A stretch of 64,000 bases of DNA from Parvibaculum sp. (GTDB lineage Bacteria; Pseudomonadota; Alphaproteobacteria; Parvibaculales; Parvibaculaceae): assembly GCA_019635975.1 (NCBI GenBank), contig JAHBYM010000001.1, positions 1-64,000 on the forward strand, read 5' to 3'. Under the pieces are notes generated by a model, which was not told the DNA's origin, ran no database searches, and worked only from the letters and a program-made list of their open reading frames with translations. Position 1 is the stretch's first letter. Each line of letters starts with the position of its first letter. Shown piece by piece: positions 5,565 through 12,209 of this stretch. The position numbers and the translations under genes are program-made.

Positions 5565-6584
5565 TCAGCCTTCTTTCTTTCCGCGTTTCTTCTTCGGCTC
5601 TTTTCGCCAGCGGTACAATCCGAAGACGATGGAGACGATGAACGACAATTGCCGCTGCATCGTCGTCTTCGTGTCGGGCTGAACATAGTCGTCGTCATGG
5701 ATCGGTCTGAACAGACCGTCCGTCTTGTCCGGGAAGTAAACCCGTTGCACCCAGAGATTGGAGGCGGCGTATCTCGCGACGATTGCGCGGCGTTGCGCCG
5801 ACGTCAGCATTGATTCCCGGCTGTTCTTGACGTATCGGTCGCCGGTTACATCGTTCACGAAATCCTGAAACCGGTTATCGTGGGCGTCCCTGAAAATGCG
5901 CCGGTTGCCCTTGACCAGATCCATGATCGCGTCGGCAAAACTCGGATTGGCTTCCTTTTCGGGACGGGCAAATGCCTCCAACGGTTTCGACAAGCCAAGA
6001 AGCTTGAAAAAATCGGCGATCACATCGCCGCCCTCAAGCTGCTGCCGGTCGAAAATCCTGACCTTTATCTTGTCGCGCGGAATGACCTTTTCCCAATTCG
6101 TCAGGTAGATGTGCCAGTTGCCCAGCGAGCCGACAACGGCAATGAGCCATGCCAGAAGGTCGTCCTGCACCTTGGCGTTCCACTGCTGCCAGGCCGATAG
6201 CACGAACTCGTCCTGCCGCCGGATATAGAGGATCGCCTCGACATCATGGTCCTTTGCCAGCCCTTCAAAGAGCGACGGTCCGGCGGCGTATGACGCCAGG
6301 TTCTCCGCGCTGAGAAGGATTGTTGTTGCGTCCGTTGCGGCGTCGCAGATCGTCTTTATTGCCGCCTCCAGCGCCGCGCGCCCTTCGGCCGGGGTCGCGA
6401 CCAGATCCTTCATCATGCGAACGTGGTTGCCGCAAGCGCCGCCGCCTAGGCCGAGATCGTTGGTTGGCACCACGATCCCTTCCTTGCGCAGCGCATCGAC
6501 GTTGAGATCGAGGAAGCTTTGTATGGCGGAACTGCCGGTTTTGCCGGCGCCGATGTGAACAATGATTTTCCGTCGTTCGCTCAA
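5565..6584 (-). CDS. Sulfotransferase-like protein (first of tandem pair)
   Basis: A 339-residue protein starting with IIVHIGAGKTGSSAIQSFL, a P-loop-like 5'-phosphosulfate-binding motif, followed by a helical body and the AILYIRRQDEFVLSAWQQW region that fits the 3'-phosphate-binding segment. The basic C-terminus (KKKRGKKEG) is not membrane-spanning. The start is a TTG at 6584, about six bases after ggggtg; no ATG is close and the P-loop begins at residue 8, so a later start would destroy it. It is divergent from phaC across a 243-bp gap and probably co-transcribed with the next sulfotransferase-like gene. Confidence 0.65.
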   Translation of the reverse strand: MSERRKIIVHIGAGKTGSSAIQSFLDLNVDALRKEGIVVPTNDLGLGGGACGNHVRMMKDLVATPAEGRAALEAAIKTICDAATDATTILLSAENLASYAAGPSLFEGLAKDHDVEAILYIRRQDEFVLSAWQQWNAKVQDDLLAWLIAVVGSLGNWHIYLTNWEKVIPRDKIKVRIFDRQQLEGGDVIADFFKLLGLSKPLEAFARPEKEANPSFADAIMDLVKGNRRIFRDAHDNRFQDFVNDVTGDRYVKNSRESMLTSAQRRAIVARYAASNLWVQRVYFPDKTDGLFRPIHDDDYVQPDTKTTMQRQLSFIVSIVFGLYRWRKEPKKKRGKKEG

Positions 6585-6827
6585 AACGCACCCCGAAATT
6601 GCCCGTTGTGCACGCGCGGGCTTCCACTCCGCGGGCCGCGTCGGGCAAACACTGCCGAATCCACCAAATCGGACGTCCGGCAGCCCCCATCTGGCCCTTG
6701 CCGCGCCCCCTTCGGCGGCGCATCATATAGGCCTGTTGCGCAGGCGCAACGGCAATGCCCGCCCGGCAATCGCCTTCCGGGGAGGGAAGGCGGGTGGGCA
6801 AGAAACGCAAAACGGGGAGGAGGACGC

Positions 6828-8519
6828 ATGTCGAAGCGTCGCGACGATATTGGTGCGGGTATCGGTGAGGAAGCGGCCGAAACGCCGAATGTGCTGAGCC
6901 CGATTGTCGGCATCAGCCGCGAGGATGTGCTCTCGGCCATCGGTTCCATCGTGGGGGGCGCGGCGCGCCAGCCCTTCACCTTCATGCAGCATATCGGCTC
7001 CTTCGGCCGCGAGATGGTCGACATTGTCGCCGGCGGGGACAAGTTCGCCCCCCAGCCCAAGGATCGCCGCTTTGTCGATCAGGCGTGGCAGAAGAGCCCG
7101 GTCTATCGCCGGCTGATGCAGGGCTGGCTCGCCTTCCAGAGCGAGGTCCATGGCTTCATCCGCTCTCTCGATCTCGATCCGGTCGAACATGGTCGCGCCA
7201 TGCTGGTCGCCGACATCATGATCGACGCCGTCGCGCCGACGAACACGCTGGTCGGCAATCCCTCCGCCGTGAAGCTCGCGCTCGACACCGGCGGCTCGTC
7301 GCTGGTTCAGGGTTTCCGCAATGCCATCGACGATCTGCGCAACAATCACGGAATGCCTTCGCAAGTCGACAAGACGCCCTTCAAGGTCGGCGGCAATCTG
7401 GCCACCACCGAAGGCGCGGTCGTCTATCGCACGGAAATGCTCGAGCTGCTGCAATACACGCCGAAGTCCGAAACCGTGCACAAGGTGCCGCTGCTCTTCG
7501 TGCCGCCGCAGATCAACAAATATTATGTACTCGATCTGACGCCCGAGAAGAGCATGTCGCAATATCTGGTGCATCAGGGCCATCAAGTTTTCGTCGTCAG
7601 CTGGCGCAATCCGGGCCCGGAACATCGGGATTGGGGCCTTGCCGATTATGTTGCGGCGCTTGTGGACGTCATCGGCGTTGTCTGCTCGATCACGGGCAGC
7701 GAAAAGCTCAACATCTCGGGTGGTTGCTCGGGTGGCATCACCACCGCGACGCTTTTGAGCCACCTTGCGGCCAAAGGCGACGACCGCATCAACTCGGTCA
7801 CCTTCTGGGTTTGCGTTCTCGATCCGCGCATGGAGGACAGCGATGTCGGCGTGCTGGTCACGAAGCGCGGCATCGAGATGGCGCGACAGAGATCGGCAAA
7901 GAAAGGCGTGCTGGCGGGGTCCGATTTGTCGCGCGTCTTCGCCTGGCTGCGCCCCAACGATCTGATCTGGAACTACGTCGTCAACAACTATCTCCACGGA
8001 CAGAAGCCGCCGGCTTTCGACGTGCTCTTCTGGAACAACGACTCGACCAATCTTACCGCGGCGCTTCATTCGGACTATCTGTCGCTCTACGAAACGCAGC
8101 CCTTCGCCAATCCGGGCAAGGAAGAAATTCTCGGCACGCCGATCGATCTCGGCAAAGTCACGGTCGATGCCTTCATCGTCGGCGGCGTCACCGATCACAT
8201 CACGCCCTGGAAAGCCTGCTACCGCACCACGCAGATGCTCGGCGGCAAGCGGGAATTTGTGTTGTCGAACAGCGGCCACATTCAGGCGATTCTCAATCCG
8301 CCCGGCAACCCGAAGGCAAAATATTTCGTTAACGACAATCTTCCCGCCACCGCCGACGAATGGGCGGCCGGTGCCTCCGAAGTCATGGGTTCATGGTGGG
8401 AACGCTGGGAAAAATGGCTGAGCGCACGTTCCGGCGAGAAGATTCCGGCGCCGAAAAAACTCGGTAACCGCAAATATAAGGCTATGGATGCCGCGCCGGG
8501 TACTTATGTATTAGGCTAG
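6828..8519 (+). CDS. phaC: Class I poly(3-hydroxyalkanoate) synthase PhaC
   Basis: Polymerises (R)-3-hydroxyacyl-CoA into polyhydroxyalkanoate granules in the cytoplasm. The 563-residue length fits single-subunit synthases. The catalytic Cys300 lies in the lipase-like box SGGCSGG; Asp456 (GVTDHITPW) and His484 (SGHIQAILNPPGNPKAKY) complete the triad. The N-terminal region (KSPVYRRLMQGWLAF) matches the PhaC N-terminal domain. The start at 6828 is set by ggggaggagg seven bases upstream; the frame is open further upstream but without family similarity. The depolymerase gene follows 64 bp later on the same strand, so synthesis and mobilisation are probably co-regulated. Substrate chain length cannot be read from sequence. 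Confidence 0.95.
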   Translation: MSKRRDDIGAGIGEEAAETPNVLSPIVGISREDVLSAIGSIVGGAARQPFTFMQHIGSFGREMVDIVAGGDKFAPQPKDRRFVDQAWQKSPVYRRLMQGWLAFQSEVHGFIRSLDLDPVEHGRAMLVADIMIDAVAPTNTLVGNPSAVKLALDTGGSSLVQGFRNAIDDLRNNHGMPSQVDKTPFKVGGNLATTEGAVVYRTEMLELLQYTPKSETVHKVPLLFVPPQINKYYVLDLTPEKSMSQYLVHQGHQVFVVSWRNPGPEHRDWGLADYVAALVDVIGVVCSITGSEKLNISGGCSGGITTATLLSHLAAKGDDRINSVTFWVCVLDPRMEDSDVGVLVTKRGIEMARQRSAKKGVLAGSDLSRVFAWLRPNDLIWNYVVNNYLHGQKPPAFDVLFWNNDSTNLTAALHSDYLSLYETQPFANPGKEEILGTPIDLGKVTVDAFIVGGVTDHITPWKACYRTTQMLGGKREFVLSNSGHIQAILNPPGNPKAKYFVNDNLPATADEWAAGASEVMGSWWERWEKWLSARSGEKIPAPKKLGNRKYKAMDAAPGTYVLG

Positions 8520-8583
8520 ACATTCGTTGTTGAGTCGCCCCGTGGAGCGGGCAACGGGCGCGAGCCCTCCAGCCGGAGTAGTG

Positions 8584-9480
8584 ATGACAGACAGGCAGCC
8601 CCGTTACCGCGACGTCAGAGCGGGTTCGAACATCTTGCGCACCGCCGTCTGGCATGGCGAAAGCAAGGGCAAGGGCAGTGCGAAGGGCCGGCCGTTGCTG
8701 TTCTTCAACGGCATCGGCGCCAACATCGAATTGATCGCGCCGCTCGCCGAAGCGCTGACCGATCGGGACATCATTGCCTTTGACGCCCCCGGCGTCGGTG
8801 GCTCCGCGGCCGCCAGCATTCCCTATCGCCCGTGGAATCTCGCGCGCATGGCGGCAGCCATTCTCGATGAACTCGGCTATCACGGCGAAGTCGATGTGAT
8901 GGGCGTCTCCTGGGGCGGCGCGATGGCGCAGCAATTCGCCTTCCAGTTCGGCTCGCGCGTCCACCGGCTCATTCTCTGTGCGACATCGGCCGGTATGTTA
9001 ATGGTGCCGGGCAATCCGAAGGCGCTGATGAAGCTCGCCCATCCGCGCCGCTACATGGACCCCGCCTATCTGATGCAGCATTTCGAAATGCTCTATGGCG
9101 ACGACGAGGCCGGTGCGCCTGATCATTCGAGCCGCCTGCGCGCGCCGACGATCCGCGGCTACTTCTATCAACTGCTCGCCGGCATCGGCTGGACCAGCGT
9201 GCCCTTCCTTCCCTTCATCAAGCAGCCGACGCTGGTGCTCTCCGGCGACAACGACCAGATCGTGCCGCTGATCAATGGCCGCTTCCTCGCCCAGATCATT
9301 CCGGGCGCTCGCCTCGAAATCGTCTCCGGCGGCCATCTCTTCCTGGTCTCGCGCGCCAATGAGGTGATCCCGCTGATCCGCGACTTCCTCGACGAGGTGG
9401 TCGAAAAGCGCCCTTTCGCCGCCCGTCGCGCTAAGGCCGCGGCATCCGCGGCGCCTTTCACCGTCAAAATGGCCGATTGA
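8584..9480 (+). CDS. phaZ: Intracellular PHA depolymerase, alpha/beta hydrolase (PhaZ-like)
   Basis: A 298-residue alpha/beta hydrolase with oxyanion region FFNGIGANIE, nucleophile elbow GVSWGG (Ser109), a late Asp in SGDNDQIVP and His in SGGHLFLVSRA. The pattern GIGANIELIAPLAEAL and FDAPGVGGS matches the intracellular medium-chain-length PHA depolymerases, and position directly after phaC supports the call. No signal peptide, as expected for a granule-associated cytoplasmic enzyme. The ATG at 8584 follows ccggag. The C-terminal tail is basic and Ala-rich, possibly granule-binding. It could instead be a generic esterase, but the context makes that less likely. Confidence 0.85.
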   Translation: MTDRQPRYRDVRAGSNILRTAVWHGESKGKGSAKGRPLLFFNGIGANIELIAPLAEALTDRDIIAFDAPGVGGSAAASIPYRPWNLARMAAAILDELGYHGEVDVMGVSWGGAMAQQFAFQFGSRVHRLILCATSAGMLMVPGNPKALMKLAHPRRYMDPAYLMQHFEMLYGDDEAGAPDHSSRLRAPTIRGYFYQLLAGIGWTSVPFLPFIKQPTLVLSGDNDQIVPLINGRFLAQIIPGARLEIVSGGHLFLVSRANEVIPLIRDFLDEVVEKRPFAARRAKAAASAAPFTVKMAD

Positions 9481-9607: not shown

Positions 9608-11263
9608 ATGAAAATCGGAAAGCGCGGCATCGGCGTTCTCGCCGGTTTGGTGGTTGTCGTTATCGTCGCGGGCGTCCTGTTCAGCCGCTACTGGATTTAC
9701 ATTCCTGGCCTCATCGACGCCTGGCGCGATCCGGTCGGCCCCAATGTCGAAATCGTCTGGGAAGAGGGCCCGGCCGAAGCGGCGCAATCGCCCGCCGAAC
9801 GCGCACCCAACATCATCGTCATTCTGGTCGACGACATGGGTTTCAACGAACTGACGCTGCATGGCGGCCTTGCCGGCGGCACCGTGCCGACGCCGCACAT
9901 CGACGCCATCGCCAGGAACGGCGTCACCTTCACCAACGGCTATGCTGGCAACGCCACCTGCGCGCCCTCGCGCGCCGCCATCATGACCGGCCGCTTTGCC
10001 ACCCGCTTCGGCTTCGAATTCACGCCGGCCCCCAAGGCCTTCGCCAAAAACATTGCGCGTTTCAATCGCGATGCAGGCGCCATCTACTACGCGGATCGCG
10101 AACCTCTGGTGCCCGAACCCGATCTGATGACACTGCCTGCCGACGAAATCACCATCGCCGAAACCCTGCAGGCGGCCGGCTACCGCACGCTGATGCTCGG
10201 CAAGTGGCATATCGGCGGCACCGAAACGTCACGTCCCGAAAAGCGCGGCTTCGACGAGGCGCTGGGCTTCATGCGTGGCGCCTCGCTTTTTCTGCCGGTC
10301 AACGACCCGAACGTCGTCAACTCGAAGCAGGATTTCGACCCGATCGACCAGTTTCTCTGGGCCAATCTTCCCTTCGCCATCGAGTTCAACGGTTCGCAGC
10401 GCTTCGCACCGTCTCACTACATGACGGATTATCTGACCGACGAAGCGGTCAAGGCGATCCACGCCAACCGCAACCGCCCCTTCTTCATGTATCTCTCCTA
10501 CAATGCGCCGCACACACCGCTTCAGGCACTGAAGTCGGACTATGATGCACTCTCGCATATCGAAAACCACACCGAGCGCGTTTATGCGGCGATGATCGTC
10601 GCGCTCGACCGCGGCGTGCAGAAAGTGACGGAAGCCCTGCGCGCGAACGGTCTGGAAGAAAACACCATCGTCATGTTCACCAGCGACAATGGCGGCGCCC
10701 ATTATGTCGGCCTCCCCGATCTCAACAAACCCTATCGCGGCTGGAAGATCACCTTCTTCGAGGGTGGCATTCACGTACCCTATTTCATGCAATGGCCGGC
10801 CCGCATTCCGGCAGGCACCGTCTATGACGGTCCGGCCGCGCATGTCGACATCTTCACGACCGCGGCGGTTGCCGCCGGCGCCGTGCCGCCTTCCGACCGC
10901 ATCATCGACGGCGTCGATCTTGTGTCGCTGGCGCTCGGCGAAGCGCCGCGCCCCGACCGGCCGCTCTTCTGGCGCTCGGGTCACTACAAGGCGCTTCTGA
11001 GCGACGGCTGGAAACTTCAGGTCGCCGAGCGGCCGGCGCGCAACTGGCTGTTCAATCTCGCGGTCGATCCGACCGAGAAGTACGATCTTTCGGAGGCCGA
11101 ACCCGCCAAGCTCGCCGAAATGATTGCGCTTCTGAACGAAATAGACAGCGAGCAGTCCGATCCGATCTGGCCTGCCCTGCTCGAAGGCCCTGTCATGATC
11201 GACCGTCCGCTGGGCGGTGCGCCGCGCGGACCGGACGATGAATATGTTCTCTGGCCGAACTAG
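9608..11263 (+). CDS. Membrane-anchored type I sulfatase
   Basis: A 551-residue sulfatase of the alkaline phosphatase superfamily, hydrolysing sulfate esters. Residues 8-26 are an uncleaved-looking hydrophobic anchor, so the catalytic domain probably faces the periplasm. NIIVILVDDMGFNELTLHG supplies metal-binding Asp residues, and Cys118 in CAPSRAAIMTGR is the residue converted to formylglycine. GKWHIGG, HTPLQALKSDY and FTSDNGG are the usual downstream motifs. A cleavable signal peptide is absent by eye. It overlaps the next gene, a formylglycine-generating enzyme, so enzyme and activator are probably translationally coupled. The sulfated substrate is unknown; tandem sulfotransferase-like genes lie 3 kb upstream. 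Confidence 0.9.
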   Translation: MKIGKRGIGVLAGLVVVVIVAGVLFSRYWIYIPGLIDAWRDPVGPNVEIVWEEGPAEAAQSPAERAPNIIVILVDDMGFNELTLHGGLAGGTVPTPHIDAIARNGVTFTNGYAGNATCAPSRAAIMTGRFATRFGFEFTPAPKAFAKNIARFNRDAGAIYYADREPLVPEPDLMTLPADEITIAETLQAAGYRTLMLGKWHIGGTETSRPEKRGFDEALGFMRGASLFLPVNDPNVVNSKQDFDPIDQFLWANLPFAIEFNGSQRFAPSHYMTDYLTDEAVKAIHANRNRPFFMYLSYNAPHTPLQALKSDYDALSHIENHTERVYAAMIVALDRGVQKVTEALRANGLEENTIVMFTSDNGGAHYVGLPDLNKPYRGWKITFFEGGIHVPYFMQWPARIPAGTVYDGPAAHVDIFTTAAVAAGAVPPSDRIIDGVDLVSLALGEAPRPDRPLFWRSGHYKALLSDGWKLQVAERPARNWLFNLAVDPTEKYDLSEAEPAKLAEMIALLNEIDSEQSDPIWPALLEGPVMIDRPLGGAPRGPDDEYVLWPN

Positions 11264-12209
11264 AACGATTGCACTCTCGATTGCGGCAGCAGTGCTTCTC
11301 GGCGCCGCCGCGATCGTCGCCGTCTGGACCGTCGGCGGCCGGGAGACGGCGCGGCTTGCAGCGGCTGAGCCGTCACGCTGCCTCGCGGATGGCGACGATC
11401 GCGGCGACGTCTGGGTCCCGCCCGGAACCTTTATGATGGGCGACACCGTCTATCCGGAAGAGGGCCCGCCGCGCCAGGTCTCGGTCGAAGGTTTCTGGAT
11501 GGACCGCACCGAAGTCACCAATCGCGACTTCGCGGCCTTTGTCGCCGCCACCGGCTATGTGACGGTCGCCGAACGTCCGGTCGATGCGGCGCTGCATCCG
11601 CACCTCCCGCCCGAAATGCGGCTGCCCGGCGCGGTCGTCTTCGTGATGCCCAACGATGTCGATGGCATGGGCGACATCTCGCAATGGTGGCAATATGTCC
11701 CTGGCGCGAACTGGCGTCAGCCGGGCGGGCCGAAAACTTCCATCGAGGGCCGCGACGATTTTCCGGTCACCGCCGTCGCGCTCGAGGATGCGCGCGCCTA
11801 TGCGCAATGGAGGGGCAGGGCGCTCCCCACCGAAGCCGAGTGGGAATGGGCGGCCCGAGCCGCCGATCCGGATGCGCCGCCCGCGCGCGAACGTCCGAAA
11901 GAGGCAAACACCTGGCAGGGTCTGTTTCCGGTCGTCAACACCGCCGAGGACGGCTTCGTCGGCATTGCGCCGGTGGGCTGTTTCGAGACCAACGCGCTCG
12001 GACTCCACGACATGCTCGGCAATCTCTGGGAATGGACGGCCGACCCCTATGACGGCCGCCGCGACGCGCATGTCATCAAGGGCGGCTCATATCTTTGCGC
12101 GCCGAACTACTGCTTGCGCTACCGCCCGGCGGCGCGCCAGCCGCAGGAGGTGGATCTTGCCACCACCCATCTCGGATTCCGCACGGTCGCCGCCGCGCCG
12201 GGCCCCTGA
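11238..12209 (+). CDS. Formylglycine-generating enzyme (FGE/SUMF1-like), membrane-anchored
   Basis: Installs Calpha-formylglycine at the CxPSR cysteine of sulfatases. The FGE-sulfatase domain is recognised by VPPGTFMMGDTVYPEEGPPR, GFWMDRTEVTNRDFAAFV, ALPTEAEWEWAAR and HDMLGNLWEWTADP. Cys287 and Cys292 (GGSYLCAPNYCLRYRP) occupy the place of the copper-binding catalytic pair of true FGEs, so this is predicted active rather than a binding-only homologue. An N-terminal hydrophobic segment (about residues 8-25) predicts a membrane anchor with the enzyme outside the cytoplasm. The ATG at 11238 overlaps the sulfatase gene by 26 bases; the ATG at 11244 is also possible. 323 residues. Confidence 0.88.
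   Translation: MNMFSGRTRTIALSIAAAVLLGAAAIVAVWTVGGRETARLAAAEPSRCLADGDDRGDVWVPPGTFMMGDTVYPEEGPPRQVSVEGFWMDRTEVTNRDFAAFVAATGYVTVAERPVDAALHPHLPPEMRLPGAVVFVMPNDVDGMGDISQWWQYVPGANWRQPGGPKTSIEGRDDFPVTAVALEDARAYAQWRGRALPTEAEWEWAARAADPDAPPARERPKEANTWQGLFPVVNTAEDGFVGIAPVGCFETNALGLHDMLGNLWEWTADPYDGRRDAHVIKGGSYLCAPNYCLRYRPAARQPQEVDLATTHLGFRTVAAAPGP

Follow-up and report, generated by a model that had tools for sequence, protein, structure and literature searches.

A predicted membrane-anchored formylglycine-generating enzyme beside an anchored sulfatase in Parvibaculum points to probable sulfatase maturation in the periplasm

Two neighbouring genes of Parvibaculum sp., encoding a sulfatase and a formylglycine-generating enzyme (FGE), are the subject of this analysis. 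They lie on the same, forward strand of a 64,000-nucleotide stretch of DNA (assembly GCA_019635975.1, contig JAHBYM010000001.1, positions 1 to 64,000), which is referred to here as the window. A first-pass annotation had described the two genes as overlapping and both products as membrane-anchored, with a CAPSR motif in the sulfatase and both catalytic cysteines in the FGE, and had proposed that an FGE facing the periplasm might mature the sulfatase outside the cytoplasm, as in the eukaryotic endoplasmic reticulum (ER). Comparison of both proteins with their relatives in the genus and across bacteria suggests that they indeed meet in the periplasm.

The sulfatase gene (9608..11263, + strand) encodes a 551 amino acid protein that matches the Pfam family PF00884 with 180.5 bits (E=6e-53) and contains a CxPxR motif near its N-terminus, as expected for an S1 sulfatase domain. 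The motif reads CAPSR (within GNATCAPSRAAIMTG), and its cysteine, Cys118 (9959..9961), is the predicted formylglycine site and the only cysteine of the protein. The N-terminus opens with MKIGKR, and the hydrophobic run behind it (residues 7-26; 9626..9685) was assigned as a signal anchor on the basis of hydrophobicity and charge; the net charge is +4 on its N side, counting the amino group, and 0 over the following 15 residues. The best relatives in the PDB are carrageenan sulfatases and other sulfatases, some of them in family S1-19 (6bia, E=2.5e-74). The protein is thus predicted to be an S1-type formylglycine sulfatase anchored in the inner membrane.

The FGE gene (11238..12209, + strand) encodes 323 amino acids. 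The protein matches PF03781 with 228 bits (cut-off 23.3; E=1.8e-67) over positions 6-254 of the 255 in the profile, which corresponds to the full domain. Ahead of this domain, MNMFSGRTR is followed by a 25-residue hydrophobic run (residues 10-34; 11265..11339) with a peak mean hydropathy of 2.63, which is the putative signal anchor and export segment. Four cysteines are present: Cys48 in the linker that follows the anchor (11379..11381), Cys248 in the sequence PVGCFE (11979..11981), and Cys287 and Cys292 in GGSYLCAPNYC (CAPNYC, 12096..12113), which have the C-x4-C spacing of the catalytic pair and align with the core cysteines of human and Thermomonospora curvata FGE. The core matches the FGE chains of T. 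curvata, human and Streptomyces coelicolor with E-values of about 1e-51 to 1e-49, and an alignment of nine FGE rows has 64 invariant positions, the cysteine pair being common to all rows. An AlphaFold2 model built from 54 sequences reached a mean predicted local distance difference test score (pLDDT) of 86.4 and a predicted template modelling score of 0.83, with 219 of the 323 residues at a pLDDT of at least 90; the anchor, modelled as a helix at residues 8-31, and the linker have low confidence. The model superimposes on human FGE (1y1e) with Z 34.4 and a root-mean-square deviation of 1.5 over 244 residues, compared with Z 24.6 for PvdO and Z 24.1 for PorK, and the protein falls below the NCBIfam equivalog cut-offs for PvdO (58.5 of 500 bits), GldK (86.6 of 350) and EgtB (79.9 of 360). 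By sequence and predicted fold, the protein is a genuine FGE, and the cysteine motifs and the two anchors described in the first-pass annotation were all recovered.

The two genes overlap by 26 bases if the FGE starts at the ATG at 11238, by 20 bases with the ATG at 11244 and by 47 bases with the GTG at 11217. The overlap that had been noted is therefore real in the window, but it is not a trait of the genus: across 23 loci, including the window, the two genes overlap by up to 26 bases or lie up to about 100 bases apart, and most relatives lack the 26-base overlap, so it was rejected as a meaningful feature. What is conserved at the locus is the adjacent gene pair together with the anchors. 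An FGE ortholog was found in all 27 genus genomes searched, with 62-100% identity over the matched part, one of the 27 being cut by a contig end. A sulfatase adjoins the FGE in 23 of the 24 genus loci that were assessed (readable FGE, window included), a count that leaves out G005 (a fragment with an in-frame stop), G041 and G042. In the 24th locus (L059 of G010, a genome that is 74% complete), the FGE directly follows a polyhydroxyalkanoate (PHA) depolymerase gene with no sulfatase between them, an indication that other clients exist for this FGE. Every ortholog of the genus with a readable N-terminus has a hydrophobic run there, the letters of which are poorly conserved.

The likely orientation of the FGE was deduced from the charges that flank its anchor in 26 proteins, comprising those of 23 genus loci, two relatives and the window. 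The net charge before the anchor, counting the amino group, averages +3.0, against +1.0 over the next 15 residues; the N side is the more positive one in 23 proteins, the two sides are equal in three, and no protein shows the reverse. This excess of charge on the N side predicts an N-in topology with the catalytic domain outside. In addition, some FGE homologues carry clear lipoprotein signals, such as L087, L090, L097 and L248.

For a broader comparison, FGEs were collected from a cross-phylum scan, of which the best 80 of at least 541 confirmed stretches were used, drawn by similarity to the window FGE, and from 385 genomes of the same class, 32 of which had a match with E<=1e-40 and contributed 31 regions. 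Pooled with the genus and a few near loci, these gave 132 FGE rows, a number that falls to 109 if the window alone stands for the genus, as it does in the pair counts below; in the alignment, the genus is represented by the window plus six rows. Three rows were dropped (L230, a fragment; L246, with an unreadable N-terminus; L089, with an unclear start), and the fragment L075 was never included. Inspection by eye moved the FGEs L136, L236 and L071 to the exported class and L142 and L254 to the cytosolic class; among the sulfatases, L137 and L247 were set to Sec, and L093, L136 and L235 were considered ambiguous. Of 112 aligned FGEs with the catalytic cysteines, 61 were classed as exported and 51 as cytosolic; one of the 61 (L151) is doubtful and was kept in the alignment but left out of the tree labels. 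The idea that exported FGEs are rare was consequently rejected, at least for a sample chosen by similarity to the window FGE.

In this alignment, a cysteine at the position of Cys248 occurs in 31 exported FGEs and in none of the 51 cytosolic ones, and all 31 proteins also have a cysteine within the 30 residues ahead of the domain. The other 30 exported FGEs lack Cys248, which means that the cysteine pair marks one exported clade and not export itself. The FGE tree places the window protein in an exported clade of 32 rows, with a value of 94 in the Shimodaira-Hasegawa-like approximate likelihood ratio test (SH-aLRT), beside a cytosolic clade of 16 rows (SH-aLRT 97). Within the exported clade, 31 of 32 rows, window included, have the linker cysteine as well as the equivalent of Cys248, and L087 lacks both; no Cys248 equivalent was found in the 16 rows of the cytosolic sister clade. 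Two cysteines that are kept or lost together, and only in exported proteins, suggest that a disulfide forms where conditions are oxidising. Cys48 and Cys248 probably form such a bond, which would tie the linker of the FGE to its core.

The location of the FGE was then compared with that of its neighbours. Of the 109 rows, 47 have a gene of the sulfatase family no more than 1000 bases away on the same strand; L093 and L235 (ambiguous), L100 (no CxPxR motif) and L246 (dropped) were left out of these. All 22 exported FGEs in the remaining pairs have a Sec-exported or anchored sulfatase as neighbour, whereas the 21 cytosolic FGEs adjoin a cytosolic sulfatase in 13 cases, one with a twin-arginine (Tat) signal in five and a Sec-type one in three. 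With either strand allowed, exported FGEs and Sec-type sulfatases match in 26 of 26 cases, and cytosolic FGEs and cytosolic or Tat-type sulfatases in 22 of 26. Among Alphaproteobacteria only (same strand), 12 of 12 exported FGEs are paired with Sec-type sulfatases, and the eight cytosolic FGEs with five Tat-type and three Sec-type ones. The Fisher values of 2.2e-9 (all) and 0.0036 (Alphaproteobacteria) ignore kinship and are descriptive only; they were rejected as evidence by themselves, since the tree shows two location changes and hence two independent contrasts. A cytosolic FGE beside a Tat-type sulfatase fits a rule of matching compartments, because a Tat client folds before export. Tat signals, assigned by motif and by eye, were seen in the sulfatase-family proteins of L085, L243, L255, L258 and L259 on the same strand as a cytosolic FGE, and further in L144 and L253 on the opposite strand and in L135 (opposite strand, at about 1.5 kb).

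The sulfatases themselves differ in their cysteine content. From the start of the catalytic domain onward, exactly one cysteine is present in 23 of 23 partner sulfatases of the genus. Among the neighbours from outside the genus plus the window, this applies to 21 of 33 Sec-exported or anchored sulfatases versus two of 26 cytosolic or Tat-type ones; this count places L093, L136 and L235 in the latter group and also covers the sulfatases beside dropped FGE rows. A single cysteine would be expected if the target has to remain free under oxidising conditions.

Further sulfatases and possible maturases were searched for in the genus. The genome of the window (G000) encodes seven PF00884 proteins and three PF03781 proteins, of which only the window FGE has the catalytic cysteine pair; the others are a lipoprotein-like protein without the pair (L012:6131-7024) and an EgtB-like protein (L003). 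The lipoprotein-like protein is on the - strand of contig C57 and has the sequence RGGSWTDTPGP in place of the cysteine pair, as do its counterparts L191 (G001), L192 (G018) and L193 (G014); a lipoprotein-like signal was present in both copies that were read. In four near-complete genomes of the genus, four of 12 PF03781 matches have the cysteine pair, one per genome, and these are the orthologs of the window FGE. Thus, no cytosolic FGE with catalytic cysteines was found in the five genomes read. The anaerobic sulfatase-maturating enzyme (anSME, AtsB type), a radical S-adenosylmethionine maturase, also makes formylglycine in sulfatases; it is unrelated to FGE and oxygen-independent. No anSME above the cut-off was detected in the 27 genus genomes, which gave one weak match of 34.9 out of 349 bits. 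The five genomes differ in motif between compartments: CAPSR is present in 17 of 17 recognised exported CxPxR sulfatases and in none of the 13 recognised cytosolic CxPxR proteins, which have CGPSR, CMPAR, CLPSR, CVPAR and CSPTR. For lack of a locus, two of 32 PF00884 matches were left out of this set, and motif-less proteins resembling LtaS or EptA (L010, L157, L165, L179 and L181, named by eye) were not counted as sulfatases. The distribution of motifs fits separate maturation systems but proves nothing.

Taken together, three indirect lines of evidence, namely the charge bias at the anchor, the cysteine pair confined to an exported clade and the matching location of neighbouring sulfatases, make a periplasmic FGE domain the most likely arrangement, and we consider it probable that a periplasm-facing, anchored FGE matures anchored sulfatases after their translocation. 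The proposal of the first-pass annotation is supported in part, although an exported FGE is no oddity of the locus. The comparison suggests that the FGE would be held in the inner membrane by its N-terminal signal anchor with the catalytic domain in the periplasm, and that the sulfatase would be inserted likewise, threading through Sec in an unfolded state. On the outer face, Cys118 of CAPSR would be met by the FGE and converted to formylglycine before or during folding, by means of Cys287 and Cys292, copper and O2. Such a copper- and O2-dependent mechanism at a cysteine pair is known for other FGEs, and both copper and oxygen should be at hand in the periplasm. Since the FGE persists in one genus genome without an adjacent sulfatase, it probably acts on the other exported CAPSR sulfatases of the cell as well. 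As a general principle, the location of FGE may follow the compartment in which its client sulfatase folds, outside for exported FGEs, be they anchored, lipoproteins or secreted, with Sec-type clients and inside for cytosolic FGEs with cytosolic or Tat-type clients, so that Gram-negative bacteria would possess an ER-like, copper- and O2-dependent pathway in the periplasm whose descent is separate from that of animals; we favour this wider view slightly.

Several observations weigh against a periplasmic FGE. The genus encodes sulfatase-family proteins with a CxPxR motif and no export segment (L172, L175, L177, L178, L180, L182, L183, L185, L174, L176, L162, L009 and L011), among them L172, a homologue of phosphonate monoester hydrolase (best PDB matches 4uph, 2vqr and 2w8s). 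These would be beyond the reach of a periplasmic FGE and, with no cytosolic FGE found in the five genomes read, they would be unmodified, matured by an unknown activity or modified by an anchored FGE that is also active in the cytoplasm. The genome of the window is only 84% complete and consists of 337 contigs. The cytosolic FGEs L137, L240 and L242 adjoin Sec-exported sulfatases, so modification before export also seems possible. Because the tree shows just two changes of FGE location, leaving two independent pairs, the neighbour counts are far from independent and allow no statement of significance. The extra cysteine pair probably arose once and hence represents one event only, and the exported clade of the window has moderate support (SH-aLRT 94). 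The residues behind the FGE anchor likewise carry a mildly positive charge, and exported proteins are generally poor in cysteine, which limits the argument from single cysteines. Finally, the export calls rely on our own hydrophobicity rule with overrides by eye instead of a trained predictor, and the choice of start codons is uncertain; in L072, the start used for the charge count falls inside the anchor.

Modification in the cytoplasm, by an FGE domain that faces inward or reaches the nascent chain ahead of anchor insertion, has in its favour the cytosolic CxPxR proteins in a genus with no second catalytic-cysteine FGE in the five genomes read, and the three cytosolic FGEs beside Sec-exported sulfatases; it also agrees with the statement of one article that FGE of prokaryotes resides in the reducing cytosol (PMC4505483). 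Against this stand the 26 anchors without a single reversed charge bias, the lipoprotein signals of some relatives and the restriction of the extra cysteine pair to exported proteins, and we regard the cytoplasmic route as unlikely. The cytosolic CxPxR proteins could also speak for a mixed route, in which the FGE is a periplasmic backup and an unknown activity in the cytosol accounts for part or most of the sulfatase maturation, the more so as E. coli makes formylglycine in foreign sulfatases without an FGE. The separation of CAPSR in exported from other motifs in cytosolic proteins looks, however, as if different systems were involved, and a mixed route appears quite improbable.

It is also conceivable that the FGE is exported but carries out another periplasmic oxidation, as PvdO does, while the sulfatase is matured by something else. 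The FGE fold is indeed reused in exported proteins that are not FGEs, including PvdO (5hha), PorK and OCTIN, which is described as a periplasmic protein of this fold without catalytic cysteines (PMC5915273), and the genus keeps its second, lipoprotein-like PF03781 protein. Nevertheless, the protein agrees with true FGEs in both catalytic cysteines and in the core around them, human FGE and not PvdO is its best match in structure, a sulfatase is adjacent in nearly all assessed loci, and the genus genomes gave no anSME above the cut-off. We therefore consider this alternative very improbable, and a periplasmic FGE acting on exported sulfatases remains the preferred reading.

The FGEs of S. coelicolor (2q17) and T. 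curvata (6s07) share the fold, the cysteine pair and the core with the window protein, with 47-49% identity in structural alignments, but they are of the cytosolic type and have a CHxSYC loop, whereas the window FGE is distinguished by its anchor, its CAPNYC loop and two additional cysteines; the T. curvata protein falls into a different clade. Human FGE (SUMF1) has the same fold and acts in the ER on sulfatases that enter the secretory pathway. In a quick, unrooted tree with SH-aLRT support only, its core groups beside 36 cytosolic FGEs of bacteria (SH-aLRT 98) and lies well apart from the clade of the window. The likeness to the ER that the first-pass annotation had drawn thus holds for the arrangement and not for near descent, and the tree lends no support to a close derivation of the ER arrangement from the exported clade of bacteria. 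In this sample, sulfatase maturation outside the cytosol would have arisen separately or have been lost in between. PvdO acts in pyoverdine maturation in the periplasm, and both PvdO and PorK are exported. PvdO thus resembles the window FGE in its proposed location, with a weaker fold match, while GldK/PorK and GldJ are exported lipoproteins of the FGE fold that, unlike the window protein, are structural parts of the gliding machinery and the type IX secretion system.

The S. coelicolor enzyme is discussed as cytosolic in one article (PMC4505483). Genomic studies of sulfatase-bearing bacteria have counted FGE genes and predicted sulfatase export, and the portions available do not discuss where the FGE is located (PMC6388578, PMC9723792, PMC10880615, PMC4807772). 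Among the papers listed by searches of the open-licence literature in PubMed Central, no title or opening of an abstract mentions an exported catalytic FGE, which may be published elsewhere. If the proposal is true, a large Gram-negative branch of FGEs works in the periplasm, which would explain how Sec-exported sulfatases are matured after crossing the membrane and account for the single cysteine of many of them. Gram-negative sulfatases and FGEs would then have to be expressed differently, by co-expression in the periplasm, and a bacterial system open to simple genetics would be available for the reaction that is defective in multiple sulfatase deficiency.

A different cysteine feature was observed in a large clade of cytosolic FGEs (rows among L114-L149, and L251, L254 and L257), of which 32 of 35 members have two consecutive cysteines close to the N-terminus; in 17 of these members they form CCxxxR (e.g., SCCTPAR or CCAPQR), which resembles the CxPxR substrate motif of FGE itself. 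Elsewhere, an N-terminal CC occurs in four of 54 exported and in none of 16 other cytosolic FGEs. This segment may be a pseudo-substrate or a metal-binding tail; the N-terminal extension of human FGE holds Cys50 and Cys52, as one article describes (PMC4505483).

The surroundings of the gene pair include genes of PHA metabolism. A PHA synthase close to class II (717 bits, below the cut-off of 855) and a poly(3-hydroxyalkanoate) depolymerase above its cut-off are encoded at positions 6519-9480 of the window, directly ahead of the sulfatase, and a hybrid histidine kinase gene lies downstream of the FGE.

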